This document shows, in pieces, positions 8,004-38,374 of a stretch of 49,859 nucleotides of DNA. The stretch is from a virus. Within the stretch, counting starts at the first letter, position 1; each line of letters begins with the position of its first letter. The translations under genes and the position numbers were made by a program. Below the pieces are notes generated by a model. The model was given only the letters and a program-made list of their open reading frames with translations, ran no database searches and had not been told where the DNA came from. The DNA lies in IMG/VR virus record IMGVR_UViG_3300025165_000008, positions 1 through 49,859 of that record, one strand, 5' to 3'.

Positions 8004-8012
8004 GGAGTAAAT

Positions 8013-9665
8013 TTGAAGCCTTACGTAAAGTGGATCGAGGAAGGCAATTTCTGGATTCGCGGGGCCTATGATCCAGTTACCGATCTGGAAACACCGACGG
8101 GACCTCTAAAACTGGTTGTACACCAGAAGAGGATTCTTGCGCATTGTCTTACTCCATATCAGGAAAATGGGGTATGGAAGTTACCGTATACAACTGTTAT
8201 CTACTCTTGTCCAAAGAAGTCGGGGAAGACAACGATTGGCGCGAGTGTAGGTGGCTGGTTTAGTTCGGAAGCGGTGGATAACACGGAGAGTTTCTGCCTA
8301 GCGGGTGACTACGAACATGCTATGGGCCGAATGTTTGACGACCTCCTGTTTGACGCCACATACGGTAGGGACGATTTTCCAAACGGCAAGTTGTCCGAGA
8401 AGCCAAACAGAGACTTGCTGGTGTATCCCGGCGACAAGAGTATCCAGGCTATTGCACAAGAGTATAAGACCGCTTCTGGTTCTCGACACGCCTTGACCCT
8501 CTGGGACGAGTTGTGGACCTACACGTCAGAGGCATCCAATCGTTTGTGGGTAGAAATGACGCCGATCAAGATTCCCGGCGTCCCGATCTCGCTACGATTC
8601 GTTAGTACCTATGCTGGATTCGAGGGACAGTCGGACCTTCTGTGGAGTCTATATGAGCAGATTGTTCTGAATGGTGAACCAGTACCAGAATTGATCGACA
8701 TAACACATGCGAGCGGCGAGCCGACCTGCTGGAAAAATGGTCGTATGTTCGCTTACTGGGATAGTGCACACAGGATGCCATGGCAGACTGAGGACTACTA
8801 CCTAGAACAGCTTGCATCGGGAATGAAGCCGAACGAGTATGCCCGTCTGCATGAGAACAGATGGACAACTGGCTCGGAGCCATTCATGCCGATCTCTTGG
8901 TGGGATACGGTGGCGGTGCTTAAAGGGTCCTTGGAGTATGACACTAAGAATCCTCGCCGACAACTTCCCGTGGTCATTGGCTGTGATGCCTCTACTAAGC
9001 ATGACTCTACGGCGGTGGTTGGTGTGCAATATGACTATGAAGAGGACATGTTGTATGTGGCCTTCCACAAGATTTGGAGACCGTCTCCCACGGAGCCAAT
9101 GGACTTTGAACACACGTTGGAACGGTATATCCTAGAGCGCCATAACGAAGGCTTCCAGATTGCGGCAATAGTGTATGATCCAACCCAACTACACCGCTCT
9201 ATGACCCGTCTGGGTGTGACAATCCAGGGCGTTACTGAGTTTCCACAGACCCTGCGCAATATGACTGCAGCCAGCGAGACGCTGTATGGGTTGTTTAAGA
9301 ATCAGAAAATCCTGACTTATAAGGATGAAGAGTTCCGTGCCCATATGCAATACGCTATGGCAGAAGAAAAAGGTAAGGGTTTTCGCATCGTAAAGCCACC
9401 GCGAGCTTCGGCGCACCACACTGATGCGGCTATCGCCCTAGCGATGGCAACGTTCTATGCCTATAAGACACACGGTTACGACGTAAGTAAGCCCATTCAA
9501 ATCGAAGTACCGTTTGCTGAGGGCTCCCAGTTTCAAGAAAAATCTCCAGAACAGATACAGGAGGAGACTAATCTGCCCCCGCAACTTCGTTCTGGCGGAC
9601 TCACAGAAGAAGAGTTCGATGCACAATGGAAAAAGCATGTCAAACGTGAGGGCCTAAATGCCTGA
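8013..9665 (+). CDS. terL: Terminase large subunit
   Basis: This protein packages phage DNA, using an ATPase motor and a nuclease. The 550-residue product shows a Walker A-type loop CPKKSGKTT (residues ~66-74) and a Walker B ending LWDELW (near residue 168) with the catalytic Glu. The RNase H-like nuclease follows, with GCDAS (near residue 325) as the first metal-binding Asp and HHTDAAIA near residue 470 as the last. This layout and length fit the Terminase_1 group. It starts at TTG, supported by AAGGAG 7 nt upstream. It overlaps the portal gene by 8 nt. Confidence 0.92.
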   Translation: MKPYVKWIEEGNFWIRGAYDPVTDLETPTGPLKLVVHQKRILAHCLTPYQENGVWKLPYTTVIYSCPKKSGKTTIGASVGGWFSSEAVDNTESFCLAGDYEHAMGRMFDDLLFDATYGRDDFPNGKLSEKPNRDLLVYPGDKSIQAIAQEYKTASGSRHALTLWDELWTYTSEASNRLWVEMTPIKIPGVPISLRFVSTYAGFEGQSDLLWSLYEQIVLNGEPVPELIDITHASGEPTCWKNGRMFAYWDSAHRMPWQTEDYYLEQLASGMKPNEYARLHENRWTTGSEPFMPISWWDTVAVLKGSLEYDTKNPRRQLPVVIGCDASTKHDSTAVVGVQYDYEEDMLYVAFHKIWRPSPTEPMDFEHTLERYILERHNEGFQIAAIVYDPTQLHRSMTRLGVTIQGVTEFPQTLRNMTAASETLYGLFKNQKILTYKDEEFRAHMQYAMAEEKGKGFRIVKPPRASAHHTDAAIALAMATFYAYKTHGYDVSKPIQIEVPFAEGSQFQEKSPEQIQEETNLPPQLRSGGLTEEEFDAQWKKHVKREGLNA

Positions 9666-11514
9666 AGAAACCTTAGTTAATGAAACGTTACCCGTAATTC
9701 TTGATCGGTATAGACGCGCCAAAACTATGGCGATGCCTTGGCATAACCAGATCAAGCGTTGGCGGGATTTTTATGACCAGTCCCACTACAAAGCGCGGGC
9801 TAAGATTAACGAGACACAGTATCCCGATCCTACGCCCACTAATGTCGTTGATGTTGCTGTTGGTGTTCTTGGGTCTCATCCCCTAGAGTTTAAGGCAGTG
9901 GGGTGGTCTCCATCTTCAGAAGAGCAGAAGGCCACAGATAACGTAGAGAAGTTTCTTAATGGTGCTATTGATGTAGCCAACGATCGAGAGGATATGCTTA
10001 TTCCTTACATGGTGAATATGCACATGGTTCGAGACGGGGCCGCAGTAGTTAAGAGCGTCTGGGACCCTTACTTAGCAAATCGACACGCCGCCCTAATTCA
10101 ATTACCTAATCCCGATGCAGAGTTGGGAGCACCCCAGTCTATACCTATGCGGGCGTTCCTGGAACTGCCGCTTAGAACTCAGGTTATTGATCCGCTAGAG
10201 GTCTATATTGTCCCTGGCGGTAGACAGCGATGGCTTTATCTTTTTCACGCAACTCGCATGTCTGTGTATGACGCAGAAACCTTATACAACTTTAGAGACG
10301 AGACCTTTACCGGACGGGAAGCTGAGAAGATGTATGTGGAGTATGACCTAATTGATTATTGGCGGGTCGCACACTACCCTGACGGCGATTACATTATTAA
10401 TGCTGTTCTATTCAATGAGAAGTTCATTCCTGGGTTCACTCCCCGAGTTATGGAGGGTTACGAAGAACTTCCATTTACCATTGGATTCTTTAAGCCAGTA
10501 GACCTGAAAGAACCTGATAAGTGGGGGCACGGAGTTATCCGCCCACTTGAGCCTTCTATTGTGATGATCGAGCGGAACGTCAACCGGCGACAGCGCCAGA
10601 TTGATGTTTATAGCTCGTTACCTATGTTTGTTAAGGCCTTACCGGGCCGATCCGTGACGGTTGACTCTGGATTTGGAAAGTCAATTAGCCTAAGCGTAGA
10701 CGAAGAGATTGGGTTCCCAACATGGCCGGGTAATGCCCCGGACTCGAATCTGCAGATTGATTATTTGCGATCTCGTCTACAGCAATCTGGGTTCAGCGAT
10801 ATCCTGTTTGGTATGGAAGGACAGGGGGCCGGGTTTGCTATCAGCCAGATGACTGACCAGAACCGCATTCGCCTGATTGAGCCTATTCGACAGATCGAAT
10901 TGTTTTGGTCGAAGTGGGCGCATAAGGCGCTTAAATTGGTTCGCAATTTTGCTTCTAACTCTATGCTGCGGGTTTACGGGACCTTTAAAGGCAAGAACTT
11001 TGCCGACCAGATGATTGGTAGAGAGATTGCTGACTATAAGGTAACGGCCAAGATCAAGGCCGAGTTCCCTAATCAGCAAGTAACAAACGCTGCGCTATCA
11101 ACACAGTCCGCAGATACTCTATCTCTACGAACTAGGATGGAGCGATACTGGGATGTGGATCAGCCCGGCGATGAGTGGCAGCAGCGTATGATGGAAATGG
11201 CGGAACAACATCCGTCTATGGTTCAGTATGGGATTTTGATTGAACTACAAAAGCGCGCCGCAATGGGGGATCAGGCCGCCATGATGGTTATTCAGTTGAT
11301 GATGAATCAACAGGGCCAGAATGGAGGAAGACCGGCAGAGGGTGGGGGTGGAACGGCCCCAGGTAACGCGTTGGGTACGGCTAGTGCTACTGGCGCAAGA
11401 ACTCCACAGGAAGCCGGATTCCCCGCACCGGGTCAATCAACCCTTGATACAGTTAACCGACTTTCTAACCAACAACCGGGCCTTGATGGCTCGATAGGAG
11501 GAGCAATTGGGTAA
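9658..11514 (+). CDS. Portal protein
   Basis: The portal is the dodecameric ring at one capsid vertex through which DNA enters and leaves. The 618-residue size, its place directly after the terminase with an 8-nt overlap, and its features fit: an N-terminal helical region, a central crown with a VVKSVWDP strand, a stem with SDILFGMEGQGAG, and a helix with repeated Arg/Gln preceding a C-terminal region. The last ~80 residues are Gln/Gly/Pro-rich and probably disordered. No single catalytic motif is expected in a portal, so the call rests on context, size and general resemblance. Confidence 0.85.
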   Translation: MPEETLVNETLPVILDRYRRAKTMAMPWHNQIKRWRDFYDQSHYKARAKINETQYPDPTPTNVVDVAVGVLGSHPLEFKAVGWSPSSEEQKATDNVEKFLNGAIDVANDREDMLIPYMVNMHMVRDGAAVVKSVWDPYLANRHAALIQLPNPDAELGAPQSIPMRAFLELPLRTQVIDPLEVYIVPGGRQRWLYLFHATRMSVYDAETLYNFRDETFTGREAEKMYVEYDLIDYWRVAHYPDGDYIINAVLFNEKFIPGFTPRVMEGYEELPFTIGFFKPVDLKEPDKWGHGVIRPLEPSIVMIERNVNRRQRQIDVYSSLPMFVKALPGRSVTVDSGFGKSISLSVDEEIGFPTWPGNAPDSNLQIDYLRSRLQQSGFSDILFGMEGQGAGFAISQMTDQNRIRLIEPIRQIELFWSKWAHKALKLVRNFASNSMLRVYGTFKGKNFADQMIGREIADYKVTAKIKAEFPNQQVTNAALSTQSADTLSLRTRMERYWDVDQPGDEWQQRMMEMAEQHPSMVQYGILIELQKRAAMGDQAAMMVIQLMMNQQGQNGGRPAEGGGGTAPGNALGTASATGARTPQEAGFPAPGQSTLDTVNRLSNQQPGLDGSIGGAIG

Positions 11515-11713: not shown

Positions 11714-11714
11714 C

Positions 11715-12686
11715 GTGCCCTACGGAATTAGCGATCAGGTTTGGCAGTATCTCGATCCCCAAACACAACAAGGTATAATTGATGCTTATGGAGGATCAAC
11801 TCAAGTAGGAGGTTCTGGTGGTGCTGTTCCAGGTAGCTGGCCCGACGACCAGCCGCTTCCTGATCCTTACCTTCTTGACTTAGGATATTCAACACCCGAG
11901 TCTCAGCAGCAGGCATTAGCCGAGATTATGGGCGCAGGATATACTTACGATCAGTTTATTGAGGAATTCTTTGGATCGGGTACATCAACATCTACTCAAT
12001 CGGGGAGTAGTGGCGGCGGCGGTGGGTTTATCCAGGATATTGGTCCCGCCGGCCCGCTTGCTCCGATATCTGCTACATTTAGTCCATACGAGCACCAGAT
12101 CGCGAGCGCGCCTGAGTGGTGGAAGGCTTTGGCACCGGATGTCATAAACCCAGTATCGGAATACCAGACTCTTTCTAACTTGCTGATTCCGTTTTTGAGT
12201 CCAGAAGACCAGAGAACCGTGGCGACGAACCTCTATCAATCTAACCCTACACAGTTCTCGCACTTGAATCCAGAACTCTTAGAAGGACTTCAGCCAGCCA
12301 CAGAAATTACCCCCCAACTTCGTACTCAATTCTTCACTGGGGAACGCGCACAGAACGCATTGACTGCATTTGATGAGCTTTTGAGTATTTCTGGAAAGAG
12401 CCCGGATGACTTTGGGCCGGGGTACAACTTCTTGCGGGGTCTAGCAGATACTGTTAAAGACTACAGGTTGACTTCTGGAGCTTCTCAACTAACTGAGACT
12501 CAGCAAGGACAATTGTTATCGGCTCTTGATCCGATGTTGGCACAGACTGAGAGTAGAGAATTAAGTGCGTTCGGGCCGTTAGCTCGAAGCTTTGTTAATC
12601 CGTTCTTTTCTGCCGGTTCCCTAACCGGACAGGTTCGAAACAAGTTTGGTGATTTGATTCGTCCGCCCAACCCTAGATACTTCTAA
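11715..12686 (+). CDS. Putative minor virion protein
   Basis: This 323-residue protein has a GTG start with GGGAGAAAG upstream. It has an N-terminal helical part (residues 1-80), a Ser/Gly-rich linker with a run of Gly near residue 100, then a mostly helical Leu/Gln/Ser-rich part ending PPNPRYF. A similar SNPR(Y) phrase occurs in the 7108 gene product. It sits between the portal and the giant protein, so an internal head or ejection-related role is plausible but not shown. Confidence 0.55.
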   Translation: MPYGISDQVWQYLDPQTQQGIIDAYGGSTQVGGSGGAVPGSWPDDQPLPDPYLLDLGYSTPESQQQALAEIMGAGYTYDQFIEEFFGSGTSTSTQSGSSGGGGGFIQDIGPAGPLAPISATFSPYEHQIASAPEWWKALAPDVINPVSEYQTLSNLLIPFLSPEDQRTVATNLYQSNPTQFSHLNPELLEGLQPATEITPQLRTQFFTGERAQNALTAFDELLSISGKSPDDFGPGYNFLRGLADTVKDYRLTSGASQLTETQQGQLLSALDPMLAQTESRELSAFGPLARSFVNPFFSAGSLTGQVRNKFGDLIRPPNPRYF

Positions 12687-12695
12687 GGAGATAAC

Positions 12696-12962
12696 ATGAA
12701 AGAGTATAAGTTTGCAAGTATAGGCGCTGGAGAGGTTGATATAGTTTGCAACAAGTGGTCCCGAGAGGGATGGGCTGTTGATAAACTATATAAAGAGAAT
12801 AACAAGTTCTACGTTTTGTTTATTCGAGAGGCCCTAGAAGACCCAGCATATGTGCCAAATCCTCCAAAGCCTCTGGCACCGAGAGGTAGACCAAGAATTA
12901 AGGCTGCCGAAGAGCAGGCCATGGATTTAGAAATAGGTGCTGAATCAATAATCGAGGGCTAA
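12696..12962 (+). CDS. DUF4177-like small protein
   Basis: This 88-residue protein is preceded by a very good AAGGAGATAAC site. Residues 1-50 form a compact alpha/beta unit with W-x-REGWAV near residues 22-30 and a following beta strand, reminiscent of DUF4177. The tail contains RGRPRIK (near residue 65), an AT-hook-like element, then an acidic end. It directly precedes the giant gene with no gap. Confidence 0.5.
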   Translation: MKEYKFASIGAGEVDIVCNKWSREGWAVDKLYKENNKFYVLFIREALEDPAYVPNPPKPLAPRGRPRIKAAEEQAMDLEIGAESIIEG

Positions 12963-15900
12963 TTGCCAACCTATCCTCCAACTTCTACCCCACCTCCGCC
13001 ATCATTTTCTACCACTAGTCCCGAAGATGTCTTTAGTCGTGCCTCAGCTATAACGGGCAGACAACCGGCATTCGGGGGAGGCGGCGGCGGAGATTTGCCC
13101 CCTCGCCAGAGTAACGAAGGTAGTGATATCTACTTCGTTACCCCTGGTGATTCTTGGGGTTCTATCGCTCTTCGAATATATGGAGACGAGCGGTACAAGG
13201 TAGACCTTCAGGGTTCTAACCCGGGCCGTCAAGTATTGCACCCAGGTATGACCTTGGTGCTGCCAGATAGAGTAGAAGACCCCCGAGTACCTACACTAGA
13301 GAGAGAAGATTTCTGGAATACTGACGCATTTGCGGATACTGTTAATGCCGCAGAAGAGACGCGTCAGATTTTGCCTATCTGGAGACACGCAGAGCAGAAG
13401 TGGCCGGAGTACGGAAATATTGTATTCCTGGGTTTTGATGAGAATAATGATCCGTACCCAACCACTGATCCGACCGGCATGCCCCTATTCTGGGACCCTA
13501 AGCAGCAAACATGGTCTATAGAAGACACCGGCATTTCCTACACAATGGGAATGATCGAGAATGATTTCATTAAGCCCCTGACTCTACAAGAGCGCCAAGA
13601 TTTGTACATAATGGGAGTAGAGCAGAAGCTGCAAGGAATTGAGCTTGGTGCCTATGATGCTGGTGGTACTCAAATGTGGCAGGATTCTATTACTAGAAAT
13701 CTACCCCAAGACACCGCGTTTGTTCCTACTCTGCATGATGTTCCACAACCTACTCCACTGAAACTTGCTTGGTGGGAAAGTGCTTTTGATGCCCTTAGAC
13801 TATTGGAAGAGCCAGTTCGCGGTTTAGCCAATGTTACAACCCGAGAATCAGAGGAAGGGCGTCCGGGTATTTCTCACATGGAGTTGGCGTGGGCCGGTAT
13901 TACAAGTCTTGGGAAGGTATTTGTTACCGGCTTAGGATATGAGTATGCCAATATGCGAGAGGTTGGCGCGGGCATATTTGGACAAGAGATTAAGCCATAT
14001 GGCGTTGATAAAGACACGAACACTAAGTATACAGAAGATGAAATAGACACACTCATCGCTAGTGGACGGGCCGATGAGATTACTTGGGTTACTCCCCCAG
14101 ATTATTGGCGGGGTGAGTTCGACCGCTCTATGGAAACCATGCTTGCCATTTATAGCCGCGGAGGCTTAAGTGGTCGAGTTGGGGACATGGGGATTTATCG
14201 AGATACCTTTGACTCTGATGAAGAGTTTGATGCCTACGTTCAGGGCATCTTTAACGCTGAACCTGGGTTACAACAAGAGGCCTTAGCGAGAAGTAATCGG
14301 GATAGAGATAGAATGGAAGAGACTCGCAAGGAAGCTCTCCATGAGAAGTCGAATTTAGAGTCGCAGGCGCATGCTGCTCTGGCAGAAGGAAAGGGGGGAT
14401 TAGCAGTTAGCCTTATGACCGAGGCTAAGCAGCTTGAACTTCGCGCGGCACATTGGTATAGCCCATTCTTTATGTGGTCTAGACTGGATGAGCCTTGGAG
14501 AGAGGAAGCCTTCCTTAAGGCCGTGGCTATAGCGGAACTTGAGAATATGGGTCCACTAGACCCGCGCGTAATTCGTACCATACGAGATAATTACGAACAT
14601 GCGGGCGTAAACCTTGCCATGGGTATTGCTTTCGACATATCCAACTTCATGGGCATTGGCACAGGGAAAAAGATTCTTTCAGAGGTGGGTGGAGGAATCG
14701 GTGATCTATTTAGACTAGGTGGCCGGGCGGTTAGGTCTACGGGCGTGCTTGAGACTAAGCCCATCAGAACTGTGCTAGATTTCTTCTTTGCAGAGGCTCA
14801 TAGCTCTGTTGCTGGAGTTTATAAGAGAAATGCAAGTAACTTGATTCAGAAGCTGGCGCAAGGTACTGAACAAACCTTGACAGGGCCTATTGGTACAACC
14901 CGTGGTTTAGACCAGATGATTGAAGTTTTGGCTTCGGCTGCTAAAGGCAACCCAGACGCAATCGCAGAATTACCTGCGAGTGTGACGCGAAGATGGCAAG
15001 TTCTTGCGCGCGGTTTACAGGACTTATACAATCCTAATATGTCCGAAGCATGGATGCAGCGCATTAACCCAGACAACTGGGGACAACTTATTGACGATGC
15101 CTATAACATCATCTTTCAGCGCAGTTATGACCGTGCGATCCGGGACACCATTCGAGATTTCCCTAATCTGCCAGTAGCTCAGCAGGTAAGTAAGGCTAAG
15201 GCTATTGCAGAAGAAATCGCATCTAAGCCACGTCTCGTTGCTGGTGAGTTTGCACAGAACTTTGAAACTGTCTATAGACGATTGCATGAAACAAAGCTAG
15301 GTCCAGAGACTTTGGACGACAACCCTATTTGGCAGTTTATGAAGCGCATTGGCGTGAATATGGAAGGCGACATGGAGTTGGGTCGCGGCGCGTTTAAACT
15401 GTTCTACGGATTCAGAAACCACTTGTTTGAGTGGTGGTTGGGATTGCGTCCGGGCTGGACGGCTATTAACTACCTGGATTCTACTGTACGTTTCTTGCTC
15501 TCGGGCGGTAAGTTGTATGATGACATGGGCACTCTACATAGCATCAATACTCGTCGATTGCTTGGTCGTAATCTTCTTCGAGAAGAATTTAAGACGGCAT
15601 TTAGTCGTGCTATCCACGAACTAGAAGGGGAATTAGATTACGTTGAACCCATTGTGGAGAGAGCACTGCAGGGCCAACGGTTTAAGTATGGTCCACTAAG
15701 TCTTCTAACTGACGCTCGGCGACAAATTATTGCAGAGAAGAGAGCAGTACGGCAGGCGCGCAGCGCAACAGATAACTTGTTGCAGAAGATTTTGCGCTGG
15801 TCTTGGGATCAAGTAGGTATGACCAAGAACATTCTAGCGCGTGGGGCAGTCAATACAAATGCACTGATAGAATTCGGGCTTCGAACTAGATTGTCTATCC

Positions 15901-18900
15901 AGAAGTTTGATTCTGTATTCTGGACAATGGATCAGTTTAATTTGGAGAAGATCGTCGATGACATGGTTCAACTGGGTGCGACTCCCGATACCATTTCTGC
16001 TTTTCGTAAAGCATGGTTAGCGTCCGCTGATGATGTAGAGAAAGCCGCAGAGTTTATGAACATACTGGGTGGCTCAGGTAGACGAAGCGAGCGTTTATTC
16101 TCGCAGATACTTCCAGATAACTGGGAAGATATACTTCAAAAGAACGGAGTGGACCGCCGGATGCGGGCGCTCATCTTCCGGCCTATTGTCGAGGATATTG
16201 AAGATGTACTGCGCAAGGTAAAGCCAGAAGGCAGAGTTCAAGCCGTCACAGAGTATGTAGATGAGGCAATCTACAAGATCAACTCAGAGTTAGTTGATCG
16301 TAGTAATGACCCAGCCCTAAGATCGCTTGCTGATGATATGCGACCGGGCGGCACTGCGGGCACTACACGACCAATCCCTGGAGTAGTAGAACCAGTAGTT
16401 ATTGACCGAACGCGCAGTGGTGCGGTTCGTGTTGGTGATGATTGGTGGCGTCCAGTAAAGGATGGTGAAGTATTCGAACCTGGACATGAATTTCGCATGG
16501 GGCTTGGCGACGGCGAGCAGACTTGGGTAAAGATGACTCCCGAGGAAGCTCGGGATGCCGTACGTACTCGTGGGTCCGGCGGCGTTCGGCTCGGCGTACA
16601 GGAAGGAGAAGTACGCCTAGGACTGGAAGGTGAGGAACTAACCGTAACTACCGAGCAAATGCGAGTAGGCAAGAAGATTGTCTACACCATGAGCGAGGAT
16701 TACTACCGCCTTGGAGAACTGCAACGTGAGTCTACCGCCCGGCTATTCGATGCCGAACGACAAATCTCTGAAGCCATAGACACGGCGGCTGGGACCGCTG
16801 AGGCACTTGCAAAGGGCACACAAAACCTTGCAGTTGCTAAAGCTCTGTTGCATCATGATGCACAACTTCGTCTCATTCGAGATAATGTTAAGAAGTTTTT
16901 CCTGCGCGTCTTCCCTGGTCCCTTAAGACTTGATCCAGGTCCTCTTCGAGCAGCGGCGTGGGAACATTTTGATCGCCTTGGTCAGCAAGTTTACGAAGCC
17001 ATCATCACTTTCAATGATGAGGCTATCGAAGCCGCTCTCCGGGGAGAGATCGTGGAAGTGCCGGGTCTTCGAGACATCCTGTTTAAGGCTGGCGTTGACC
17101 TAGACTTTGAGAATGGGGCACTGCGGGCTATTCGTCTAACCGACGCAGGCGCGGGTACGCGTGTGTCTTTTAGTTCTTGGCGGGGTACGGTGTACCTACG
17201 CAAACACCTGATTCAAAGCTTCTTTGGAAGAAACGTAACTATCAAGAACGCGGAAGCGGCCTTTAACGCCGCCTTTACTGCACAGCATGTAGCGTCTACT
17301 AGCGCGGCTCAGACCACCGCGGACGTAGCAAAGGTTGTGGCTAAGGAGTTTGGAGAGAACGCCGGGCAGGTTATTGACGATGCTACTCAACACGCAGATA
17401 ACTTGTGGGAAGCCTTCGCTACTCAGGCTGATGATGGTGGAGAGTCGCTACGAAGTCGCTGGGGGGCAGAAGCCACTCAAACTCGTCAGGGATTCATTGA
17501 CTTCTTAGAACAAGAAGTTGCTCGTCTAAGTGGCCTTTCAGATCAATTATTTGTTCAGGGTGAAGCATTAGGAAGATATGCTTCTGGATACATGTCCAGA
17601 TCGCAAATAGAAACTCGTTTAGCGCAAATAACAAGTGAAATCTTTGACATGCCAGCGGGCTCTTCAGAACTTCAATGGGCAAGAGCAGAACAGGGCGCAC
17701 TAAATGATGCTTTACGACGAGGGATTACAGAAGCAGCGGCACCTCCCGTACATCAAGATACCATTGGAGCCCTACGTCGCCTACAGGACGAAGCCCGAGC
17801 CCTGGCCGTGTCTATTGACATCGCTACTCTGCCCCCAGAATTAGTGGGGCACGCGGCGGGTCCGATCCCTCGCTGGATGCTATCTGACGGTATTCAGTCC
17901 TGGTTGCGAATTACGAATGACATCACTGCCCAGAGATCGGCGCTTACAAGAAGCTTGGAAGAACTGAAGCAGGGCATAGTAAAGGGCCTCGCTGACGGCA
18001 CAATGGATTTTGCCAACATCCCAGCCGACCAGAGAACGCTTATTCGGGGAATCCTTGATGAGGCTATTTGGCGAAAGGGAGCGGCACACGACGTTGCTAT
18101 GGATGGAACCAAGGCAATTGCGGATGTTAATCCAGGCCGTCTAGAAGAACTTTCAGCGATGACTAATGCTGCCACGGGCACAGACACATTTGAGGGGGCA
18201 GTTAAGTTTACGCAGGACCGGATGTTGGAATACGGTAGGAACTATCGTATTGACAACATGATAAAATCTGTCTCCCCATTCTGGATGTTCCAGAGTCGTG
18301 GACCGATATTTTGGATTAAGGCTTTTGCGCAGCACCCAGAATATTTGGCGTGGTGGAGTCGATATCAGAGAACCCAACGCAAGCACCAGATTGACAACGG
18401 TGCGACCGATAGTGCAGGCCGACCATTGCGCAGCCTATACGGATACTTTCGATTGCCCGGTACTGATCTATGGTTCAACCCAATATACTTTTCTTCGGGT
18501 AAATACGTATTGCCGCGGCCTTCTCCATATGCTGGAGAGTTTCCTGACAACATTGGACCATATGAAGAGGCTCTTAACTATGCTTACGAGTATGGACAGA
18601 TGTTTGGTTTCCGACCGGCCCCATGGATTCAATTCCTCTTGATTCAGGGAGGAATGCTTGATACTCAGAGATACCCTGTGGGCTCTTTGATTTCACAAGT
18701 GGATGTGGTAGTTCCTCCATGGATTCAGCGGGACATTCGACGCGCGCTTCGCCAGTCTCGTTACCCAGGAGACCCTGGCCTGTTTACTGAGGATGTAGGA
18801 TGGATGGACTTCTTGGTAGAACAGGAAATATATATGCGCGCCCTGCAGGAGCTTACGGAGAATCCAGATAATCTTGCCAAAGTGCAGAGCGAGATTTACA

Positions 18901-21041
18901 ATGCTCTTGGTTTCGTGGTTACTGGCTATGATGAATTTGGTGCGCCGACCTTTGATAAAGAACACATTACACGTAATCGAGAAAATCCTCGATGGATAGC
19001 GGCTCGCGACCATATCGAGCAAACCCAGTACTACTCACAGCTTCTGGGCTTCTTTACTGGAATCTATCCAAAGGAATTTTCAGACGCCGAAGCTCAGCTC
19101 ATGGCGGTTCGAGATAACCTTAACTTCTTGAAGGATTCTATTAATAACGTAACTGGTACCGCGATCTTCCAACTTGATCCTGTACCAGAGACTCGTATGG
19201 AGATTTACCAGAATATGAAGTGGGAAACCCCAGAGGGGTGGGTTTCTCAGCTTTATGGCGCTTCACGTTGGGTAGAGACGCAGGGCGGCGGACAGGCTTA
19301 TGGACAAGAGCGTATTGAACTCATGGCTCAGAGAATTCATGAGAATGAAGTCACTCAAGCCTACTATGATTCCTTGGCCTTGGCACACGATCAGCTTAAT
19401 GAGTGTCAGCTTAGCGGCGGTATTGGTTCAGACTCCGCGGTACGCCGAACCTGCTTTAAGAACTATTTCCGTACCCGCAAGGCTCTGGACGATCATCCTG
19501 CTTATGCTGTGGCACAGCGAGATTGGATCGTTGGCTACAAGACTGAAAAGACGATTGCAGATAACTTTGAACGGATGTGGTGGAGTTACATTGATGCCAC
19601 GATGCCTAAGTGGTATGTTGAAGATGAGGAACCATATGACAGTTGGGTTGCGCGCGTAGAGGCGTGGAAGGAAGACTTACCTGGAGTCGGAACCGATCTA
19701 GCTGGCGCATTCTTGGTTCACGAAGTTGCGGGTCGCGCTGGTTTTGAGGATGGCGAGAATCCATTAGAGATTCCGGGCCATCGAATAATCGTACCGGAGG
19801 CCGTGGTTAAAGGACTATTGAAGCAGACAAATGCCGAAGGCTATGACGCATATCGCTTAAAGAACGATACGGCATTTGAGGCCATGAATAACGCATTCAA
19901 GGCTCTACAGTGGGACCCATATATGGCTAAGCAGAAAGAATGGGAATCTTTGAACTCTTATGAGCAAGAAACTGCTGAGCAAGAATGGTTAGAAAAGGCT
20001 AAGGGTCTTGGGCTACCAGAACTTCAACGATGGATATTGGAGAATTACCCAGAGGGTAAGTTTACGCCAGCGCAGTTGGCGGAAGTCTTTGGTGCTACAT
20101 CCCTAAAGACTATTGAGGAAAGAAATCTTCCGAATAGTGAACGGGGAGTTGTAGAAAGCGAAGTGTGGGAAATGTTGGCAGCGATCGGCCCGGGCGAGAA
20201 CTTCGATGTATTCAAGGAAGCTTTCGTAAAGGCGGGCGGTGAGACTGACAGCATTACTGCTTGGTATGAAACCGGCGGCGGGTTTGAGGACTACGCTAAG
20301 CTTCAAGAGTTGCATGGCATAGTCAAGAAGACTGCCGAGGCCATGGGAGTAGGTACACCCACTCAGGCACAGTTAGTCGAGTGGGGAGCGGCCAAGCGGC
20401 TAAACGATGATTTCTGGAAGGGAATAACCAATACCTTCGGTGAGGATTTCCGACACCTATTGGCTGTATATGGCGTTCTATCTGGAGCCGATAAAAAGGC
20501 ATACAGAAAGGACAACCCAGAGATTGACGAATACTACGATATGCGAGACGCCTATGGCGAAGACAACCAACTTTGGGCTAAGTACTACAATCCAGAAGCC
20601 TACACAACCCAGACTGGCTTGGCCGGAGAAGGCGCAGAGAAGCGTGGAACTTCTGGTGGGGGTGGTGGCGGTGGAGGCCGAAGACAGACTTCCTTTAGTG
20701 GTGGTGGGGGTGGTAGCTTTACTCCAAGAGAAACAATGGTGGGGCAGGGTTATCGCTCTACCTATGATACTAATCGGCTGGCCGATCCTCGAATCTTGGG
20801 TTCTGGCGGCGTAGCAGGGTCTCCGTTCTGGCCGGCTGGGTTCGGCAAGGGTACTCCAAAGGGTGTATTGAATGAGATCGTGGACCTAAAGGCTGAGGGT
20901 AAGCCGCTATCTGGTCCAGCTTTGGCCTACTTGGGGGCCGTAAAGGCAGGGGAATGGGCCGCTTACATAGCCGAACTTATTGCCGAGAGCCAGAAGGCTG
21001 CAACAAAGGGTGGGGGCGGCGGCGTAGTTACGAAGGTCTAG
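12963..21041 (+). CDS. Giant 2,692-residue LysM-containing virion-associated protein
   Basis: This gene occupies 16% of the window. The TTG start follows the previous stop directly, with GAGGG 5 nt upstream. Residues 1-50 are Pro/Ser/Gly-rich. Residues ~56-101 form a LysM domain (VTPGDSW, then HPGMTLVLPD), which binds peptidoglycan. A charged coiled-coil-like stretch lies near 430-500. Hydrophobic Trp/Phe-rich segments near 820-860 and 1765-1900 look like membrane-active or large polyvalent-protein regions. Long helical Ala/Glu-rich regions lie between and after these. Near 2564-2590 are two Gly runs around a basic patch. No lytic transglycosylase, peptidase or ADP-ribosyltransferase motif is evident. 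Its place between portal and scaffold suggests a protein packed in the head and ejected with the DNA, or a tape-measure substitute. It has no internal stop or frameshift. Confidence 0.8.
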   Translation: MPTYPPTSTPPPPSFSTTSPEDVFSRASAITGRQPAFGGGGGGDLPPRQSNEGSDIYFVTPGDSWGSIALRIYGDERYKVDLQGSNPGRQVLHPGMTLVLPDRVEDPRVPTLEREDFWNTDAFADTVNAAEETRQILPIWRHAEQKWPEYGNIVFLGFDENNDPYPTTDPTGMPLFWDPKQQTWSIEDTGISYTMGMIENDFIKPLTLQERQDLYIMGVEQKLQGIELGAYDAGGTQMWQDSITRNLPQDTAFVPTLHDVPQPTPLKLAWWESAFDALRLLEEPVRGLANVTTRESEEGRPGISHMELAWAGITSLGKVFVTGLGYEYANMREVGAGIFGQEIKPYGVDKDTNTKYTEDEIDTLIASGRADEITWVTPPDYWRGEFDRSMETMLAIYSRGGLSGRVGDMGIYRDTFDSDEEFDAYVQGIFNAEPGLQQEALARSNRDRDRMEETRKEALHEKSNLESQAHAALAEGKGGLAVSLMTEAKQLELRAAHWYSPFFMWSRLDEPWREEAFLKAVAIAELENMGPLDPRVIRTIRDNYEHAGVNLAMGIAFDISNFMGIGTGKKILSEVGGGIGDLFRLGGRAVRSTGVLETKPIRTVLDFFFAEAHSSVAGVYKRNASNLIQKLAQGTEQTLTGPIGTTRGLDQMIEVLASAAKGNPDAIAELPASVTRRWQVLARGLQDLYNPNMSEAWMQRINPDNWGQLIDDAYNIIFQRSYDRAIRDTIRDFPNLPVAQQVSKAKAIAEEIASKPRLVAGEFAQNFETVYRRLHETKLGPETLDDNPIWQFMKRIGVNMEGDMELGRGAFKLFYGFRNHLFEWWLGLRPGWTAINYLDSTVRFLLSGGKLYDDMGTLHSINTRRLLGRNLLREEFKTAFSRAIHELEGELDYVEPIVERALQGQRFKYGPLSLLTDARRQIIAEKRAVRQARSATDNLLQKILRWSWDQVGMTKNILARGAVNTNALIEFGLRTRLSIQKFDSVFWTMDQFNLEKIVDDMVQLGATPDTISAFRKAWLASADDVEKAAEFMNILGGSGRRSERLFSQILPDNWEDILQKNGVDRRMRALIFRPIVEDIEDVLRKVKPEGRVQAVTEYVDEAIYKINSELVDRSNDPALRSLADDMRPGGTAGTTRPIPGVVEPVVIDRTRSGAVRVGDDWWRPVKDGEVFEPGHEFRMGLGDGEQTWVKMTPEEARDAVRTRGSGGVRLGVQEGEVRLGLEGEELTVTTEQMRVGKKIVYTMSEDYYRLGELQRESTARLFDAERQISEAIDTAAGTAEALAKGTQNLAVAKALLHHDAQLRLIRDNVKKFFLRVFPGPLRLDPGPLRAAAWEHFDRLGQQVYEAIITFNDEAIEAALRGEIVEVPGLRDILFKAGVDLDFENGALRAIRLTDAGAGTRVSFSSWRGTVYLRKHLIQSFFGRNVTIKNAEAAFNAAFTAQHVASTSAAQTTADVAKVVAKEFGENAGQVIDDATQHADNLWEAFATQADDGGESLRSRWGAEATQTRQGFIDFLEQEVARLSGLSDQLFVQGEALGRYASGYMSRSQIETRLAQITSEIFDMPAGSSELQWARAEQGALNDALRRGITEAAAPPVHQDTIGALRRLQDEARALAVSIDIATLPPELVGHAAGPIPRWMLSDGIQSWLRITNDITAQRSALTRSLEELKQGIVKGLADGTMDFANIPADQRTLIRGILDEAIWRKGAAHDVAMDGTKAIADVNPGRLEELSAMTNAATGTDTFEGAVKFTQDRMLEYGRNYRIDNMIKSVSPFWMFQSRGPIFWIKAFAQHPEYLAWWSRYQRTQRKHQIDNGATDSAGRPLRSLYGYFRLPGTDLWFNPIYFSSGKYVLPRPSPYAGEFPDNIGPYEEALNYAYEYGQMFGFRPAPWIQFLLIQGGMLDTQRYPVGSLISQVDVVVPPWIQRDIRRALRQSRYPGDPGLFTEDVGWMDFLVEQEIYMRALQELTENPDNLAKVQSEIYNALGFVVTGYDEFGAPTFDKEHITRNRENPRWIAARDHIEQTQYYSQLLGFFTGIYPKEFSDAEAQLMAVRDNLNFLKDSINNVTGTAIFQLDPVPETRMEIYQNMKWETPEGWVSQLYGASRWVETQGGGQAYGQERIELMAQRIHENEVTQAYYDSLALAHDQLNECQLSGGIGSDSAVRRTCFKNYFRTRKALDDHPAYAVAQRDWIVGYKTEKTIADNFERMWWSYIDATMPKWYVEDEEPYDSWVARVEAWKEDLPGVGTDLAGAFLVHEVAGRAGFEDGENPLEIPGHRIIVPEAVVKGLLKQTNAEGYDAYRLKNDTAFEAMNNAFKALQWDPYMAKQKEWESLNSYEQETAEQEWLEKAKGLGLPELQRWILENYPEGKFTPAQLAEVFGATSLKTIEERNLPNSERGVVESEVWEMLAAIGPGENFDVFKEAFVKAGGETDSITAWYETGGGFEDYAKLQELHGIVKKTAEAMGVGTPTQAQLVEWGAAKRLNDDFWKGITNTFGEDFRHLLAVYGVLSGADKKAYRKDNPEIDEYYDMRDAYGEDNQLWAKYYNPEAYTTQTGLAGEGAEKRGTSGGGGGGGGRRQTSFSGGGGGSFTPRETMVGQGYRSTYDTNRLADPRILGSGGVAGSPFWPAGFGKGTPKGVLNEIVDLKAEGKPLSGPALAYLGAVKAGEWAAYIAELIAESQKAATKGGGGGVVTKV

Positions 21042-21086: not shown

Positions 21087-21155
21087 CGTAAAGCTCGCTA
21101 TTTTTACGTACAACAATCTAATGGTAGACGGCACCCTTTAGCCGTCCGTGGAGGT
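21087..21155 (+). promoter_or_regulatory. Structured leader RNA before the scaffold gene
   Basis: Two hairpins can form in the expected leader. CGTAAA (21087-21092) pairs with TTTACG (21103-21108), and GACGGC (21127-21132) pairs with GCCGTC (21141-21146). The second ends 3 nt before the GGAGGT ribosome binding site (21150-21155). This may stabilise the mRNA or tune initiation. No riboswitch class is recognised. Confidence 0.4.
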
Positions 21156-21159
21156 AAGA

Positions 21160-21996
21160 ATGGAGCCAGAAATGGTAGCCAATTCTGCCGCACCGGGCAC
21201 ACAGCCCGTAGGCGGCGAAGCCGCGGACAAGGTAGACTGGGCAGCTCAAGCGGCGGAACTTAAGAGCACACTTGAAGCAACTCAGACTTCTCTTAACGCG
21301 ATGAAGACTGAGAATGATCGAAACCTGAGACGGCTGCAAAGCACGTATCAAGGGCAGATCAACTCTCTAAGTGCACAATCTGAAGAAGAGAAGGCACGAT
21401 GGGAAGAGGCTTACCACCGGGAGAAGATGGCCGGAATGGAAGAAGCCGAAGCGTTGCGTTACGATAACTCTCGCCTTTCTAAGTTAGTAGAAGAGCGCGA
21501 GTTTCGAATGCGCGCAATACAGCAGCAAGCGGCAGATGCCCAGGCAGCGGCTGGTTATCTGCAGCAATTTACCGCACTGGGCGTTCCTGTAACCAGTCTA
21601 AACACCAGTGGGTCCCTACAGGACCTTGCTGATAGTGGATGGAATGGACTGCAGGCAGTACGTGCTCAGGAACGTAAGACGATCACTGAGTACGACGGTA
21701 AGTTGTCGGCAATCCAGGCTCAGCTTGATACCTTAAAGAAGGGCAGCGAATCCTTGGACCCGAACGCGATTGCTCAACGTGCTGGGGACTTGACTCCTCC
21801 AAACGTGGCAACTCTTACTCACGGGAACCCAACAGTTCCTCGAACGGAGTTGCAGGCGCTGGAAGCAGCAGCCCAGTATTTCGGCGGCGTAAAGCCGACT
21901 TTGGAACAACTGTATCGTGCCGTTGAGACGAGACAGCTACCCGCATCAGTATTGCCGGGATTAGAGGGTATGCCCCTAGAAGAACCAAAGAGATAA
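21160..21996 (+). CDS. Scaffold-like capsid assembly protein
   Basis: The start is the ATG at 21160, 4 nt after GGAGGT; an in-frame GTG at 21148 overlaps the site. The 278-residue product is charged and Gln/Ala/Glu-rich, with a long predicted coiled coil (residues ~25-130) and a second helix near 175-200. The C-terminal third has Pro-rich loops and a helix. Position just before the major capsid gene, size and composition match phage scaffolding proteins, which guide shell assembly and leave the mature head. No protease domain is seen. Confidence 0.75.
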   Translation: MEPEMVANSAAPGTQPVGGEAADKVDWAAQAAELKSTLEATQTSLNAMKTENDRNLRRLQSTYQGQINSLSAQSEEEKARWEEAYHREKMAGMEEAEALRYDNSRLSKLVEEREFRMRAIQQQAADAQAAAGYLQQFTALGVPVTSLNTSGSLQDLADSGWNGLQAVRAQERKTITEYDGKLSAIQAQLDTLKKGSESLDPNAIAQRAGDLTPPNVATLTHGNPTVPRTELQALEAAAQYFGGVKPTLEQLYRAVETRQLPASVLPGLEGMPLEEPKR

Positions 21997-22049: not shown

Positions 22050-23054
22050 ATGGCGCAAGCAAGTGTTGCAAATTATGCAGGCGCGGTTAAGACAAACTTT
22101 TCCCGCCGACTCCTAAGCCGAGCACTACCTCGTTTAGTGCACGGTCGTTGGGCTACCCCAGCCACCCTAACTGGCTATGGTACTCTAGAGCTTCGCAGAT
22201 ACGAGTCACTTTCAGCCATCACAGTTCCGCTAGCACAGGAAGGTGTGACCCCGGTTGAAGGTTCTGCACCTACCTTGACTCAGCTTACAGTGACCCCTGT
22301 GTACTACGGTACATGGATGGGTTACACCCAGCGGATCGTAGAGCAGGGTTACGACCCTATTCTATCTGAAATGGTGGGTGTGCTAGGCGAGCAGGCAGGT
22401 CTTTCTGCGGATACTCTGCTTCGAAACGACTTGACAGACGGTGCAACCACTGACTTCTCAGCAGGTCAGACTGCAAGAACTTCTTTGGACAGCACCTTGT
22501 CACACGAAATCACGTTCGACGACATCCTAATTCAGCTTGCTGAGTTGGAGAATCAGAACGCGAGACCCGTGGAGGGTGGTCGCTTCGCATGTGTTCTACA
22601 CCCTTACACCTGGAAGAACCTGCTACAGGATGACACCTTCATGGCGGCATTCGTACAGGAAGCTCCGAACACCGCTATCCGATCGGGTATGCTGGGAACG
22701 CTTATGAACTGTGTATTCTACATGAGTTCAAACGCCCGCATCTACGTTGACGGTGGCGCAACGAACACGGATGTCTACGACATGCTGTTCATCGGCGCCG
22801 ACTCCCACGGTGTTGCCGGATTTGCAAGCCAGATGCCGAATCTAAACCCAACGGCTGCTCCTGCGGACTACAACCCAGGTGGAAACACCGGGGGCGGAGT
22901 TAACAGCGTGGAGATCATCCGCAAGGGCCTTGGTGAGACGGGCTTCGACCCATTGAACCAGCGAGGTACCTTGGCTTGGAAGTTCGCGTTCGACGTTCTA
23001 GTAACGCAGGCCAACTGGCTTCGAAACCTAGAGCACTGCAACGACTTCAGCTAA
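22050..23054 (+). CDS. Major capsid protein (HK97 fold, N4-gp56/P22-like)
   Basis: This protein forms the icosahedral shell. The 334-residue sequence has the order seen in N4-gp56-type coat proteins: an N-terminal Arg-rich arm with L-x-R-x-L, a VPLAQEGVTP strand with the Glu-Gly turn, a GTWMGYTQRI block, a long helix with LGEQAG, a central FACVLHPYTW strand, and a late LAWKFAFDV strand. AAGAGG precedes the ATG. It is followed by two small proteins with near-identical ribosome binding sites, which suggests a highly expressed capsid operon from the 21045 promoter. Confidence 0.88.
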   Translation: MAQASVANYAGAVKTNFSRRLLSRALPRLVHGRWATPATLTGYGTLELRRYESLSAITVPLAQEGVTPVEGSAPTLTQLTVTPVYYGTWMGYTQRIVEQGYDPILSEMVGVLGEQAGLSADTLLRNDLTDGATTDFSAGQTARTSLDSTLSHEITFDDILIQLAELENQNARPVEGGRFACVLHPYTWKNLLQDDTFMAAFVQEAPNTAIRSGMLGTLMNCVFYMSSNARIYVDGGATNTDVYDMLFIGADSHGVAGFASQMPNLNPTAAPADYNPGGNTGGGVNSVEIIRKGLGETGFDPLNQRGTLAWKFAFDVLVTQANWLRNLEHCNDFS

Positions 23055-23618: not shown

Positions 23619-23638
23619 TCTAGACGAGGTAAACTAAA

Positions 23639-28033: not shown

Positions 28034-29200
28034 ATGGCTGAGCCACTAACCTCCCGAGTAACCCTACGAAGAGAAATAGCCCGCGATCTGGGTATGCCAT
28101 TCTTCCGTCGGTTCCCGAGCGGTATTACTGTTCAGGACTCCGCGACCTCTGGTCTATCTAGTGGATCGGATAGCGCTGGCATTCGGGACTCACGCCTAAA
28201 CCAGCCGCGCGAATACTGGAAGAATACCTGGATTTACGACCCAGTACAGGCCGAGCAGCGCAAGGTCATAGATTTTATTCGCGACGCAAAGAAGCTTCTT
28301 GTGGAGTTTCCTTTCACTGTCGCGCCTACGACCGCTACGGCAATCGAAATCTTTAGCATTCACACGCCAGAAGAAATACACTTGGCGATTAATGATGCCA
28401 TTACTGACGCCTTCCCTGCGTTCTATGATGTCGTGACCTACGAGAGCATGATCGTAGAGGAAGACAAATTAGAGTATGAATTAGCAACGAATAACACGGA
28501 TGGTCGGGGAGTCCTAACCAATCCGTACAGAATTAAGAATGTCTGGATAGAGCGTACTGGCAGCGGCGGAACACATCAAGCCACCGCCGGGGATACATTA
28601 AGCATTTCAGATTCGGACGCAGACTTTAGTGGCGTCGATACTGGATGGAGTGTTGGTATTTACACAGGCGCGGGCGCGGGTCAATACGCCGTAGTTAGCA
28701 GCATAGACACTGCCAGCGGTAAGTTAAATGTTACCGGCGGCTGGCTGGTTTCTCCTAGCACGGCTTCTAAGTTCCGTGCATGGGATCGACTAGCTGAACT
28801 ATATCCTTGGGAGCCATTGACTGCTCTGGAGTTTGACGCCAAGGATTATCCAAACAAGATGCGACTGCTGGAGCGTATGCCGGACAAGGTTGGTTTGCGC
28901 TTCCGCATCCAATATGTAGGACAGCCGCAGGCTCTTACTGTGGACACCGCTGAAACCGCAGTTCCAAAGCAGTACGTCAAGCACGCAGTTATCGGTAAAC
29001 TGTTGGCCCAGCGTGCAAGATCAAAGCCCGGTGAGATCGAAAAGTACACTGGCTTGGCCCAGATTGAAGTCCAAATGGCAGAGAAGTATAAGCAGGATTT
29101 TGCCTTTGATCTTCCTGACCAGACTCTGTGGACGGAACAGACGCATAGCATGCGCGGACGCGCTGACTTCTTTGATGCTGATAACCCAATGGATTGGTAA
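28034..29200 (+). CDS. Probable head-tail connector or tail protein
   Basis: This 388-residue protein begins with a helical region with Arg pairs, has a central beta insertion with Gly/Ser/Asp repeats (residues ~180-250), and resumes with an amphipathic helical C terminus (AVIGKLLAQRARS). Helical ends around a beta middle, together with a position before the large tail protein, resemble adaptors that join portal and tail. No specific family is recognised. Confidence 0.5.
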   Translation: MAEPLTSRVTLRREIARDLGMPFFRRFPSGITVQDSATSGLSSGSDSAGIRDSRLNQPREYWKNTWIYDPVQAEQRKVIDFIRDAKKLLVEFPFTVAPTTATAIEIFSIHTPEEIHLAINDAITDAFPAFYDVVTYESMIVEEDKLEYELATNNTDGRGVLTNPYRIKNVWIERTGSGGTHQATAGDTLSISDSDADFSGVDTGWSVGIYTGAGAGQYAVVSSIDTASGKLNVTGGWLVSPSTASKFRAWDRLAELYPWEPLTALEFDAKDYPNKMRLLERMPDKVGLRFRIQYVGQPQALTVDTAETAVPKQYVKHAVIGKLLAQRARSKPGEIEKYTGLAQIEVQMAEKYKQDFAFDLPDQTLWTEQTHSMRGRADFFDADNPMDW

Positions 29201-29203
29201 GCG

Positions 29204-31747
29204 ATGCAGACTCTAGGTGCATTTCCAATTAGGTTGGATGATGTTCCATACTCTATTATCATCGAGAGTTGGAAGGCTAGAGACATTACAGACTTTAGCC
29301 CAAAGACAAACGTACCGGGTACCGGCGCAGTCTTCGGGGACCTAAAGCTGCACCAACCGATCGCCATGAATAATTGGCAGCACGGTCTTGGCTATATTTG
29401 GCACGACGATGAAATGGGATATCTATCGTCTGAAGGCAACGTAGACACAAGACACAAGAACGCGGCTATGCTCTATACCAATACAACTTCTTCCGATACC
29501 AACAACAATATAAAGGAAGAAGGCATAGTTTTCAATGCGACTTTCTTTACTCGCGGTGATGCCGGTATTCGATACTACAGCGGTGGCTCTTGGACAGCCC
29601 TAAGTATTCAACGTCCTATATTTGATGCGGCTAGTGAGGGCAGCACTACTGCCGTTGCTACTGCCGGAACCGTTACAGTGTCACATACCGTAACTACTGA
29701 GGGCACTAACCGGGCGCTGTTTGTTGGGGTTATAATTGAAGATGCCACAAACGTAACGAACGTCACCGCCACCTATGCCGCAGTGGCTATGACATTAGTA
29801 ACTTCAAGTTCAGTAGGCACTACTCCTAACGTCCGGGCCTTTGTCCTGGTAGCCCCAACTACTGGGGCCAATAATATTGTAGTTACTTATACGCTGTCGT
29901 CAGGTACTGTGGAAACAGTTGTGCTGGGCGCATCCTTTATCTATGTTAACCAGGCTACTCCGTATGATGCTGTATCTACAGAAAATCCGACAGCAGTAAC
30001 AACGAACACAATCAGTCCTACCGCCACGGCCCGGGAGAATGTACTTGACTTCTTAGCTAAAGATGGTTCGGAGTCTGGGGATGCGGCATCCGTACAAAGC
30101 ACAGGCCAAGTACAGATCGCCCAAGACGACATGACTACGGCTAATGACATTCATGCGTGTGCTTCATACTTACTTGCTACTGCTGCAGATACTACTCCAG
30201 ACCTTCAATGGAATTGGACCAATGCTCGGGATATCGCACACGTAGGTATTCCTATTAACCCAATAGCAGAGACAACAATTACTCTCTTATTTGAAAATGG
30301 AGAGTACATCTTTGCGCAGCCTTCGGGACAGAGACTTCTAAAGTCTGTTACTGGAACTGGAGACTGGACTCCCGCAGGACTTAATAACGCATCCAACGAC
30401 TATTCTTGGCTTGAAATGCACGGTGGTTATATTTACGCTGGTAAGGTTTCTGAGGCACAAGTTTACTTTGATTCTAACTCAGACCTGTCTGCTCTGGCTG
30501 GTGATCCCGCCGATGATTCTGATGAGTTGGTGGCCGGACCCGGGACAGTAGGCACAAAGATTGGAATCTCATTCTTGGAAAAGTTGGCCGTATCTAGACA
30601 GGATGGATTATGGACGATAGATACGGACGACTCAACAACTACAAATTGGATTTCTAAGCGTACTCTAAACTTCAGAAATCTTAGACATGCTAATAACTTC
30701 CGTTCTACAGCAACGCATGGTGGTAGCTTATACTTTACACTACAGGATAGAATCCTATTCGAGTGGAACGGAGCGCGGCTACAAAACATTACCCCCGGCC
30801 CGATCACGGATAGTTGGGAGTACGTTAACTACTATCGCTTTGACAATCTAACCCCGTTCGGGGATTGGCTTCTATTCTCTGCTCGGACATCTGAGACTAC
30901 ATATACAGAATCTATCTTTGCCTGGGACGGCGTGGGTATTCACAAACTGCTGGACCCAATCACAGATGGCGATGGCTCAATAACCTTTATATCCATCGAC
31001 ACAAATAACTCTTATATCTGGTATCACGTAAACAAACCTACGGCTAACACTAATGTAACCTATTATCTAGAGTACCAGACTGCAACTGACTTTCCGTTTG
31101 CTAATTTTCCCACAACAGGAACACACAGAATTACCACAAGTCGAATTCACGCCGGCTACCGTCGAGTTGACAAGTCCATGCCGGCGCTATGGTTGGAGAC
31201 CGACAACTGCACGGCTACTCGGACCATACGAGTAGAATATGCCTTAGATACGGGCAGCTTCGTAGAGTGGGATACAATTACGTCTGATGGTGAACATCTT
31301 CTATACTTACCGCAGAATAAGAAGACGGAAGAATTTAAATACATCCGACTACGGTTTACTTTCGTAACTGCTACCGCCACTGAAACGCCTGTACTAGAAG
31401 GTTTCGCAATGATGGTTATGATGCGCCCAGACTTCTTAATGGGATACTCATTCAGCATCATCGGCGGTACCAATACTACTTCAGGAATGTTTGAAGACGA
31501 ACGAACCGGCTGGAGCATAATGCAGGACCTTAGAGCCGTTAGAGATCGCAAGGATACCATTTCTCTTATTACTCCTTTTGGGGACGAAGTTCACGGGTAC
31601 CTAACATCCATAACAGAAGAAGCCCTAGAATGGGAGCCAGAAGACTATGAGGGTGGCAAAGTCAATATCCTGCAGATTATTCACTGCAACTTTGCTGAAT
31701 CTATGCAGGTAGCGGGAACGGAGTTAGATGCCTTCCCAGAGTTTTAA
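29204..31747 (+). CDS. Large tail protein with inserted beta-sandwich module
   Basis: This 847-residue protein probably forms part of the tail or nozzle. The N-terminal ~135 residues and residues ~360-600 contain repeated strand phrases typical of a beta-propeller (LLFENGEYIFAQPSG, LEMHGGYIYAGK, EKLAVSRQDGLWTI, LYFTLQDRILFEWNG). Between them, residues ~140-355 hold a beta-sandwich module also present in the 32856 and 35113 proteins (ATYAAVAMTL, then FVLVAPTTGANN). The module appears to interrupt the propeller. The last ~150 residues form another beta domain. T7 gp12-like tail proteins have similar size and position, but homology is not established. Confidence 0.6.
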   Translation: MQTLGAFPIRLDDVPYSIIIESWKARDITDFSPKTNVPGTGAVFGDLKLHQPIAMNNWQHGLGYIWHDDEMGYLSSEGNVDTRHKNAAMLYTNTTSSDTNNNIKEEGIVFNATFFTRGDAGIRYYSGGSWTALSIQRPIFDAASEGSTTAVATAGTVTVSHTVTTEGTNRALFVGVIIEDATNVTNVTATYAAVAMTLVTSSSVGTTPNVRAFVLVAPTTGANNIVVTYTLSSGTVETVVLGASFIYVNQATPYDAVSTENPTAVTTNTISPTATARENVLDFLAKDGSESGDAASVQSTGQVQIAQDDMTTANDIHACASYLLATAADTTPDLQWNWTNARDIAHVGIPINPIAETTITLLFENGEYIFAQPSGQRLLKSVTGTGDWTPAGLNNASNDYSWLEMHGGYIYAGKVSEAQVYFDSNSDLSALAGDPADDSDELVAGPGTVGTKIGISFLEKLAVSRQDGLWTIDTDDSTTTNWISKRTLNFRNLRHANNFRSTATHGGSLYFTLQDRILFEWNGARLQNITPGPITDSWEYVNYYRFDNLTPFGDWLLFSARTSETTYTESIFAWDGVGIHKLLDPITDGDGSITFISIDTNNSYIWYHVNKPTANTNVTYYLEYQTATDFPFANFPTTGTHRITTSRIHAGYRRVDKSMPALWLETDNCTATRTIRVEYALDTGSFVEWDTITSDGEHLLYLPQNKKTEEFKYIRLRFTFVTATATETPVLEGFAMMVMMRPDFLMGYSFSIIGGTNTTSGMFEDERTGWSIMQDLRAVRDRKDTISLITPFGDEVHGYLTSITEEALEWEPEDYEGGKVNILQIIHCNFAESMQVAGTELDAFPEF

Positions 31748-38354: not shown

Positions 38355-38374
38355 AGTTTTACCTCCTATTTGTC

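Follow-up and report, generated by a model that had tools for sequence, protein, structure and literature searches.

We conclude that the window, a 49,859-nucleotide stretch of viral DNA (the whole of IMG/VR record IMGVR_UViG_3300025165_000008), probably encodes, at odds of roughly two in three, a giant protein that resides inside the phage head and is ejected with or ahead of the DNA. We favour this reading because of the position of the gene, the size of the protein, its scarcity of cysteine, and the polyvalent-type domains of its relatives. The giant would be packed into the capsid and, with or before the DNA, would pass down the tail to reach the envelope and interior of the host cell. Two conserved helical blocks would form the scaffold for packaging and delivery, and the stretch between them would be exchangeable cargo: an ADP-ribosyltransferase, a GGDEF cyclase or a zincin peptidase in relatives, and a short stretch with no recognised enzyme in the window phage. 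In the window phage and one relative, a LysM domain would bind the peptidoglycan that the giant must pass, with this binding function placed where T7 gp16 has a transglycosylase.

The giant gene occupies positions 12963..21041 of the + strand, on which all features described below also lie. The frame is open across all 2,692 codons without an internal stop, and the TTG start codon abuts the stop codon of the preceding ORF. Upstream are genes for the terminase large subunit (TerL; 8013..9665; phrog_9, E 1.5e-30), the portal (9658..11514; phrog_332, 'head-tail adaptor', E 0.0018, with a conserved portal-like family and position), a cysteine-free protein of 323 aa that always lies between portal and giant (11715..12686), and an 88-aa protein directly before the giant (12696..12962), where most relatives have an ORF of ~75-125 aa. 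Downstream are a cysteine-free, scaffold-like protein of 282 aa that belongs to a conserved family and precedes the capsid gene (21148..21996), the major capsid protein (22050..23054; phrog_1357, E 2.3e-35), and two conserved tail-region proteins (28034..29200 and 29204..31747, the latter 847 aa here and 600-850 aa across the family), each homologous to part of an 882-aa protein of phage L010 (see below). Names of genes other than the giant are based on PHROGs and position. The open frame and the neighbouring genes bear out the claim of an earlier note on this DNA that an ~8-kb, 2,692-residue ORF lies between portal and scaffold. As side observations, the relatives' versions of the 12696-12962 ORF resemble DUF4177-type proteins by eye, although Pfam searches returned nothing, and the capsid gene is followed by two tandem paralogous ORFs (23088-24112) that are present in two or three copies in relatives.

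The giant is intact in two more contigs, from a phage that is identical to that of the window or almost so. One of these, G001 (contig 3300009285_006111; loci L016-L018), and the window are overlapping, circularly permuted pieces of one genome; G001 adds 23 kb, giving a genome size of ~73 kb. Relative to the window, G001 has an insertion of ~320 bp near position 38360. The near-identical contigs differ by a single substitution in the giant gene, too few changes to give a substitution test any power. An IMG/VR search with the window protein as query found the same phage only, and tblastn of the protein against phages matched the LysM region only. Searches of Pfam, PHROGs and the PDB with the giant gave nothing informative beyond the LysM match.

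Relatives were reached only via TerL, a profile of which identified 56 IMG/VR loci. In loci with a sufficiently close TerL, the portal gene is followed by a gene of ~350 aa and then by a very long ORF, the product of which is 25-32% identical to the window giant over ~1,000 C-terminal residues. A profile of the conserved C-terminal block (C-block) brought in five further complete members, with L103 and L104 treated as a single one. In total, we read 14 complete copies, of 2,515-3,849 aa, all in IMG/VR phages; incomplete copies are found in G012 (at both ends of the contig), in G014 (broken into two ORFs) and as several fragments. The ORFs of G014 (L092 2478-10603; 2,072 and 632 aa) have a repeated segment at the break, suggestive of either a tandem duplication or an assembly chimera. 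Wherever the contigs reach, the gene order is TerL, portal, ~350-aa protein, (~80-aa protein), giant, scaffold, capsid, and the neighbours belong to the same families. The family alignments are shallow, at 10-16 sequences. GTDB genomes searched for proviruses with the C-block yielded none, TerL relatives in MAG contigs had no giant within the available stretch, and we found no phage group with such a protein described in the literature. Judged by sequence comparison, the giants form a protein family of uncultured bacterial viruses that Pfam, PHROGs and the PDB do not cover.

Two conserved blocks make up most of the giant. The N-terminal block (N-block; residues ~418-1137; 14214..16373; alignment A4) includes the motif L..RPG.T..N..D (residues ~826-839; 15438..15479), which consists of invariant columns of the alignment. 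The C-block (residues ~1735-2545; 18165..20597; alignments A3 and A9) carries the signature PFWMFQSRGPIFW (18270..18320; family consensus PFWMFPSRSxPFW..HP). It is followed by a Gly-rich linker (residues 2550-2588; 20610..20726) and by a conserved tail of ~100 residues with the pattern G.RST.D...L..LG.GG....WP (20727..21038), such that the conserved C-terminal region as a whole spans residues 1735-2692. Profiles built from ten or eleven members match all five independent members for both blocks (E 1e-63 to 3e-87 for the N-block, 1e-208 to 1e-288 for the C-block), and the two blocks co-occur in every complete copy. Trp, Pro, Gly, Phe and Asn dominate the invariant columns of the blocks, which show no obvious catalytic set of Asp, Glu or His. 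The length of the giants varies mostly between the blocks.

Several structural impressions of the earlier note can be refined on this basis. Its hydrophobic Trp/Phe-rich segments are real and conserved, as in the PFW motif; however, a hydropathy scan of the giant stayed below the transmembrane range in every 19-residue window (maximum Kyte-Doolittle (KD) value 1.25) and so predicted no transmembrane helix. The two Gly-rich hinges that it described correspond to two genuine glycine runs, but both lie inside the one ~39-residue linker, and a third run is at the end of the protein. Long helices are supported by the AlphaFold model of the C-block, which consists almost entirely of helices (modest confidence, pLDDT 62). 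The N-block model is of low confidence (pLDDT 52) and too poor for a fold search. The segment-wise structure prediction that had been proposed delivered a helical C-block but no fold match: Foldseek and VIA-align searches with the modest C-block model found nothing above noise. Note that profile matches of the C-block to PDB entries were to the glycine-serine linkers of scFv fragments; these are an artefact of the Gly-rich linker, vanish once it is trimmed, and were rejected.

The variable middle between the blocks (16374..18164 in the window) bears enzyme domains in relatives. ART-PolyVal scores above the Pfam cut-off in the middle of G020, L103 and L113, and GGDEF does so in the middle of G012 and L103. 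A zincin motif, HE[LM]xH, is present in G005, G017, G020, L103 and L105; these five occurrences compare with only 0.055 expected from shuffled sequences. Thus, L103 (ART, GGDEF and zincin) and G020 (ART and zincin) combine several effector domains in one polypeptide, unlike the window copy, in which Pfam recognised no enzyme domain. Phage proteins that have such domains and are encoded near virion genes have been described as polyvalent proteins, likely to be packaged and injected (Iyer et al. 2017, PMC5512222). The giant gene likewise sits within the late virion genes of a phage of the portal-terminase type, and its relatives share the ART-PolyVal, GGDEF and zincin domains; by contrast with polyvalent proteins, the giants consist mostly of two big conserved helical blocks outside Pfam, and the window copy has no recognised effector. 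We tentatively suggest that the family may be a dedicated delivery chassis, in which the two blocks would be packaged, thread the portal and enter the cell, and the centre would be an exchangeable slot for effectors such as an ADP-ribosyltransferase, a cyclic-dinucleotide cyclase or a peptidase. Its logic would recall that of polymorphic toxin carriers, with the phage head as the point of departure. The enzyme domains of several relatives would also fit a cytoplasmic polyvalent or multi-enzyme protein that is encoded in the structural cluster by chance. We regard this as very unlikely given the near absence of cysteine, the fixed position beside the portal, the two large blocks without evident catalytic residues, and the several copies, that of the window included, with no recognised enzyme.

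Cysteine is strikingly depleted from the family: we counted 12 cysteines in 50,129 residues (0.02%), as compared with 1.09% in the other ORFs of the same contigs, 1.06% in TerL, 0.31% in portals and 0.63% in the capsid protein. The depletion gives p-values of 2e-113 against the other same-contig ORFs and 4e-15 against portals, to be taken as measures of effect size rather than as a strict test, since residues within one genome family are not independent. Among proteins of classical phages, we found no cysteine in T7 gp15 and gp16, P22 gp7, gp16 and gp20, N4 gp51 and gp52, the N4 virion RNA polymerase (vRNAP; 3,341 residues read) or the lambda tape measure, and one in T7 gp14; portals, terminases, T7 gp12 and lambda J have several. 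Proteins that travel through the tail channel tend to lack cysteine, and the giant family looks like them. Cysteine scarcity cannot, however, tell an ejection protein apart from a tape measure or a scaffold. One such alternative is an internal core or scaffold that would shape the procapsid and stay behind at ejection: the giant gene adjoins the scaffold gene, and the scaffold-like proteins of these phages are equally cysteine-free. We consider it improbable, as the relatives have a separate scaffold-like gene, and LysM and enzyme domains are ill-suited to a scaffold.

The earlier note had also raised the possibility of a tape measure placed unusually early, that is, a protein acting as the ruler of a long tail and leaving the virion ahead of the DNA. 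The giant is very long, mostly helical and cysteine-free like lambda gpH, and neither the window nor the further 23 kb of G001 holds another large helical ORF that could be a tape measure, in agreement with the note's statement that no tape-measure gene is recognisable elsewhere. Moreover, L094:4446-6950, a relative of the 29204-31747 gene, matches minor tail proteins in PHROGs, which is compatible with a longer tail. Nonetheless, the balance of the evidence disfavours a tape measure, and we rate it as unlikely. The gene lies before the scaffold and capsid genes in all relatives, rather than downstream of tail-tube genes; the tape-measure families PF10145 and PF20155 are absent (0/11 genomes); ART, GGDEF and zincin domains would fall in the middle of the ruler; and, at the usual tape-measure scale of 0.15 nm per residue, proteins of 2,515-3,849 aa would imply tails of ~400-600 nm. 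There is also no convincing conserved tail-tube gene, the sole match being a weak one to phrog_4574 (E 0.022, at 32379) in an ORF conserved in only a minority of the relatives. Finally, the named relatives of the capsid protein are podophages, with the family profile matching the capsid of Bacillus podophage Page (E 2e-49), from which we infer a podovirus morphology for the window phage. Separately, we observed within the tail-gene region a 213-aa ORF (31751-32392), the C-terminal half of which resembles a DUF559/Vsr-type nuclease by eye; its family is found within the tail-gene region of eight relatives and forms part of a 492-aa ORF in L113.

The N-terminal LysM domain proposed by the earlier note (residues ~55-102; 13125..13268) is real. 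It matches phrog_46, a LysM/baseplate-hub family (E 7e-4), and contains the ~45-residue LysM pattern Y.V..GDS...IA...YG....L...N.....PG..L.LP. Its Pfam LysM score of 14.6 bits is below the cut-off of 20.9; we consider the assignment secure because the domain is homologous (blastp 1.5e-8) to a LysM ORF of L010 that passes the cut-off (21.9 vs 20.9), and because a LysM domain is present at the same N-terminal place in L019, the nearest relative (TerL 65% identical). LysM was not found in the other relatives, limiting it to this phage and L019. In the distant phage L010 (MW202608, Podoviridae sp. ctptF532), LysM is encoded by an ORF of its own, immediately upstream of one of 2,156 aa; searches among a few dozen proteins matched the latter to the C-block profile at E 1e-6 to 2e-7. 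L010 thus shares with the window the order TerL, portal, LysM, giant, scaffold, capsid, but has LysM and giant in separate genes, and its giant is mostly not alignable. These look like a fused and a split arrangement of apparently the same LysM-giant pair. The LysM domain makes contact of the window giant with the wall plausible; most relatives have no LysM.

An alternative that overlaps with ejection is that the giant itself is the DNA channel, with several copies refolding into a trans-wall tube like T7 gp15/gp16. The large, helical nature of the protein, its conserved amphipathic Trp/Phe motifs, the LysM domain of the window phage and the lack of another obvious channel protein are consistent with this idea. 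On the other hand, the giant has no transmembrane segment, and there is no gp14-like membrane partner beside it: the neighbouring proteins of 323 aa (maximum KD 0.77) and 88 aa (maximum KD 0.25) have no transmembrane segment either. We did not observe at the giant locus an operon of the T7/DEV type, with a gp14-like membrane protein of ~200 aa and a gp15-like protein, and the weak structural model gave no fold match to gp15/gp16 or DEV gp72. In N4, few copies of the giant vRNAP are present, and they leave through a channel built by gp51 and gp52 (PMC12633501), which also counts against a giant that forms the channel. We therefore regard channel formation as doubtful; of the two parts of the earlier note's proposal, an ejected internal protein and a DNA channel, the position, cysteine scarcity, helical C-block, size and relatives' domains indirectly support the former, and the lack of a transmembrane helix, of a gp14-like partner and of an informative fold match weakens the latter.

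For an ejected head protein of this size there is a precedent in the vRNAP of DEV and N4, an ejection protein of ~3,400 aa that is packed in the virion (PMC10925440, PMC12633501). In this protein (Schitoviridae gp50/gp71), an N-terminal domain and a large C-terminal domain flank a central enzyme (PMC10925440, PMC12633501), and a metallopeptidase domain is almost always fused to N4-type vRNAP (Iyer et al., PMC5512222). The vRNAPs resemble the giants in length (~3,400-3,500 aa) and in being cysteine-free in the part read; they are also packed in the virion and ejected, as is proposed for the giant. The giant shares neither sequence similarity nor an RNA polymerase domain or motif with them; it also differs in gene position, in its exchangeable centre and, in two lineages, in the presence of LysM. 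No Pfam RNA polymerase match was detected in the giant at E<=1, and there is no shared catalytic motif. We rejected the giant as an N4-type RNA polymerase, since its DxDxD motifs are scattered and not conserved. The ejection proteins of T7 (gp14/15/16) and P22 (gp7/20/16) are likewise nearly cysteine-free, helical and encoded among structural genes, and T7 gp16 also has a peptidoglycan-acting domain. These systems differ in having three proteins rather than one giant, in including a gp14-like membrane protein, and in showing no detectable homology to the giant, which has no sequence match to known ejection proteins. Unlike the T7 gp16 transglycosylase, the LysM domain of the giant is predicted to bind peptidoglycan rather than cut it.

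It is not settled how a phage loads into its head, and then delivers, proteins that exceed its tail channel in size; work on this has centred on N4-like phages and crassviruses. The giants would provide a second family, without recognisable relation to the N4-like and crassvirus proteins, and a likely role for one of the largest genes in an uncultured phage group. Comparison among the giants would then allow delivery and cargo parts to be told apart, given clearly conserved putative delivery blocks, an enzyme slot that some natural copies fill and others leave nearly empty, and a wall-binding domain that only some copies have. We also noted two features in the extra part of G001. At L017 ~7171-12848, amidoligase, ATP-grasp ligase and glutamine amidotransferase-like genes, identified by eye, are clustered, possibly as a peptide-ligation cluster. 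At L017 ~4455-5210, a protein of secreted type carries TPTPTE repeats, as is common in Chloroflexota, which may be read as a hint of the host only.
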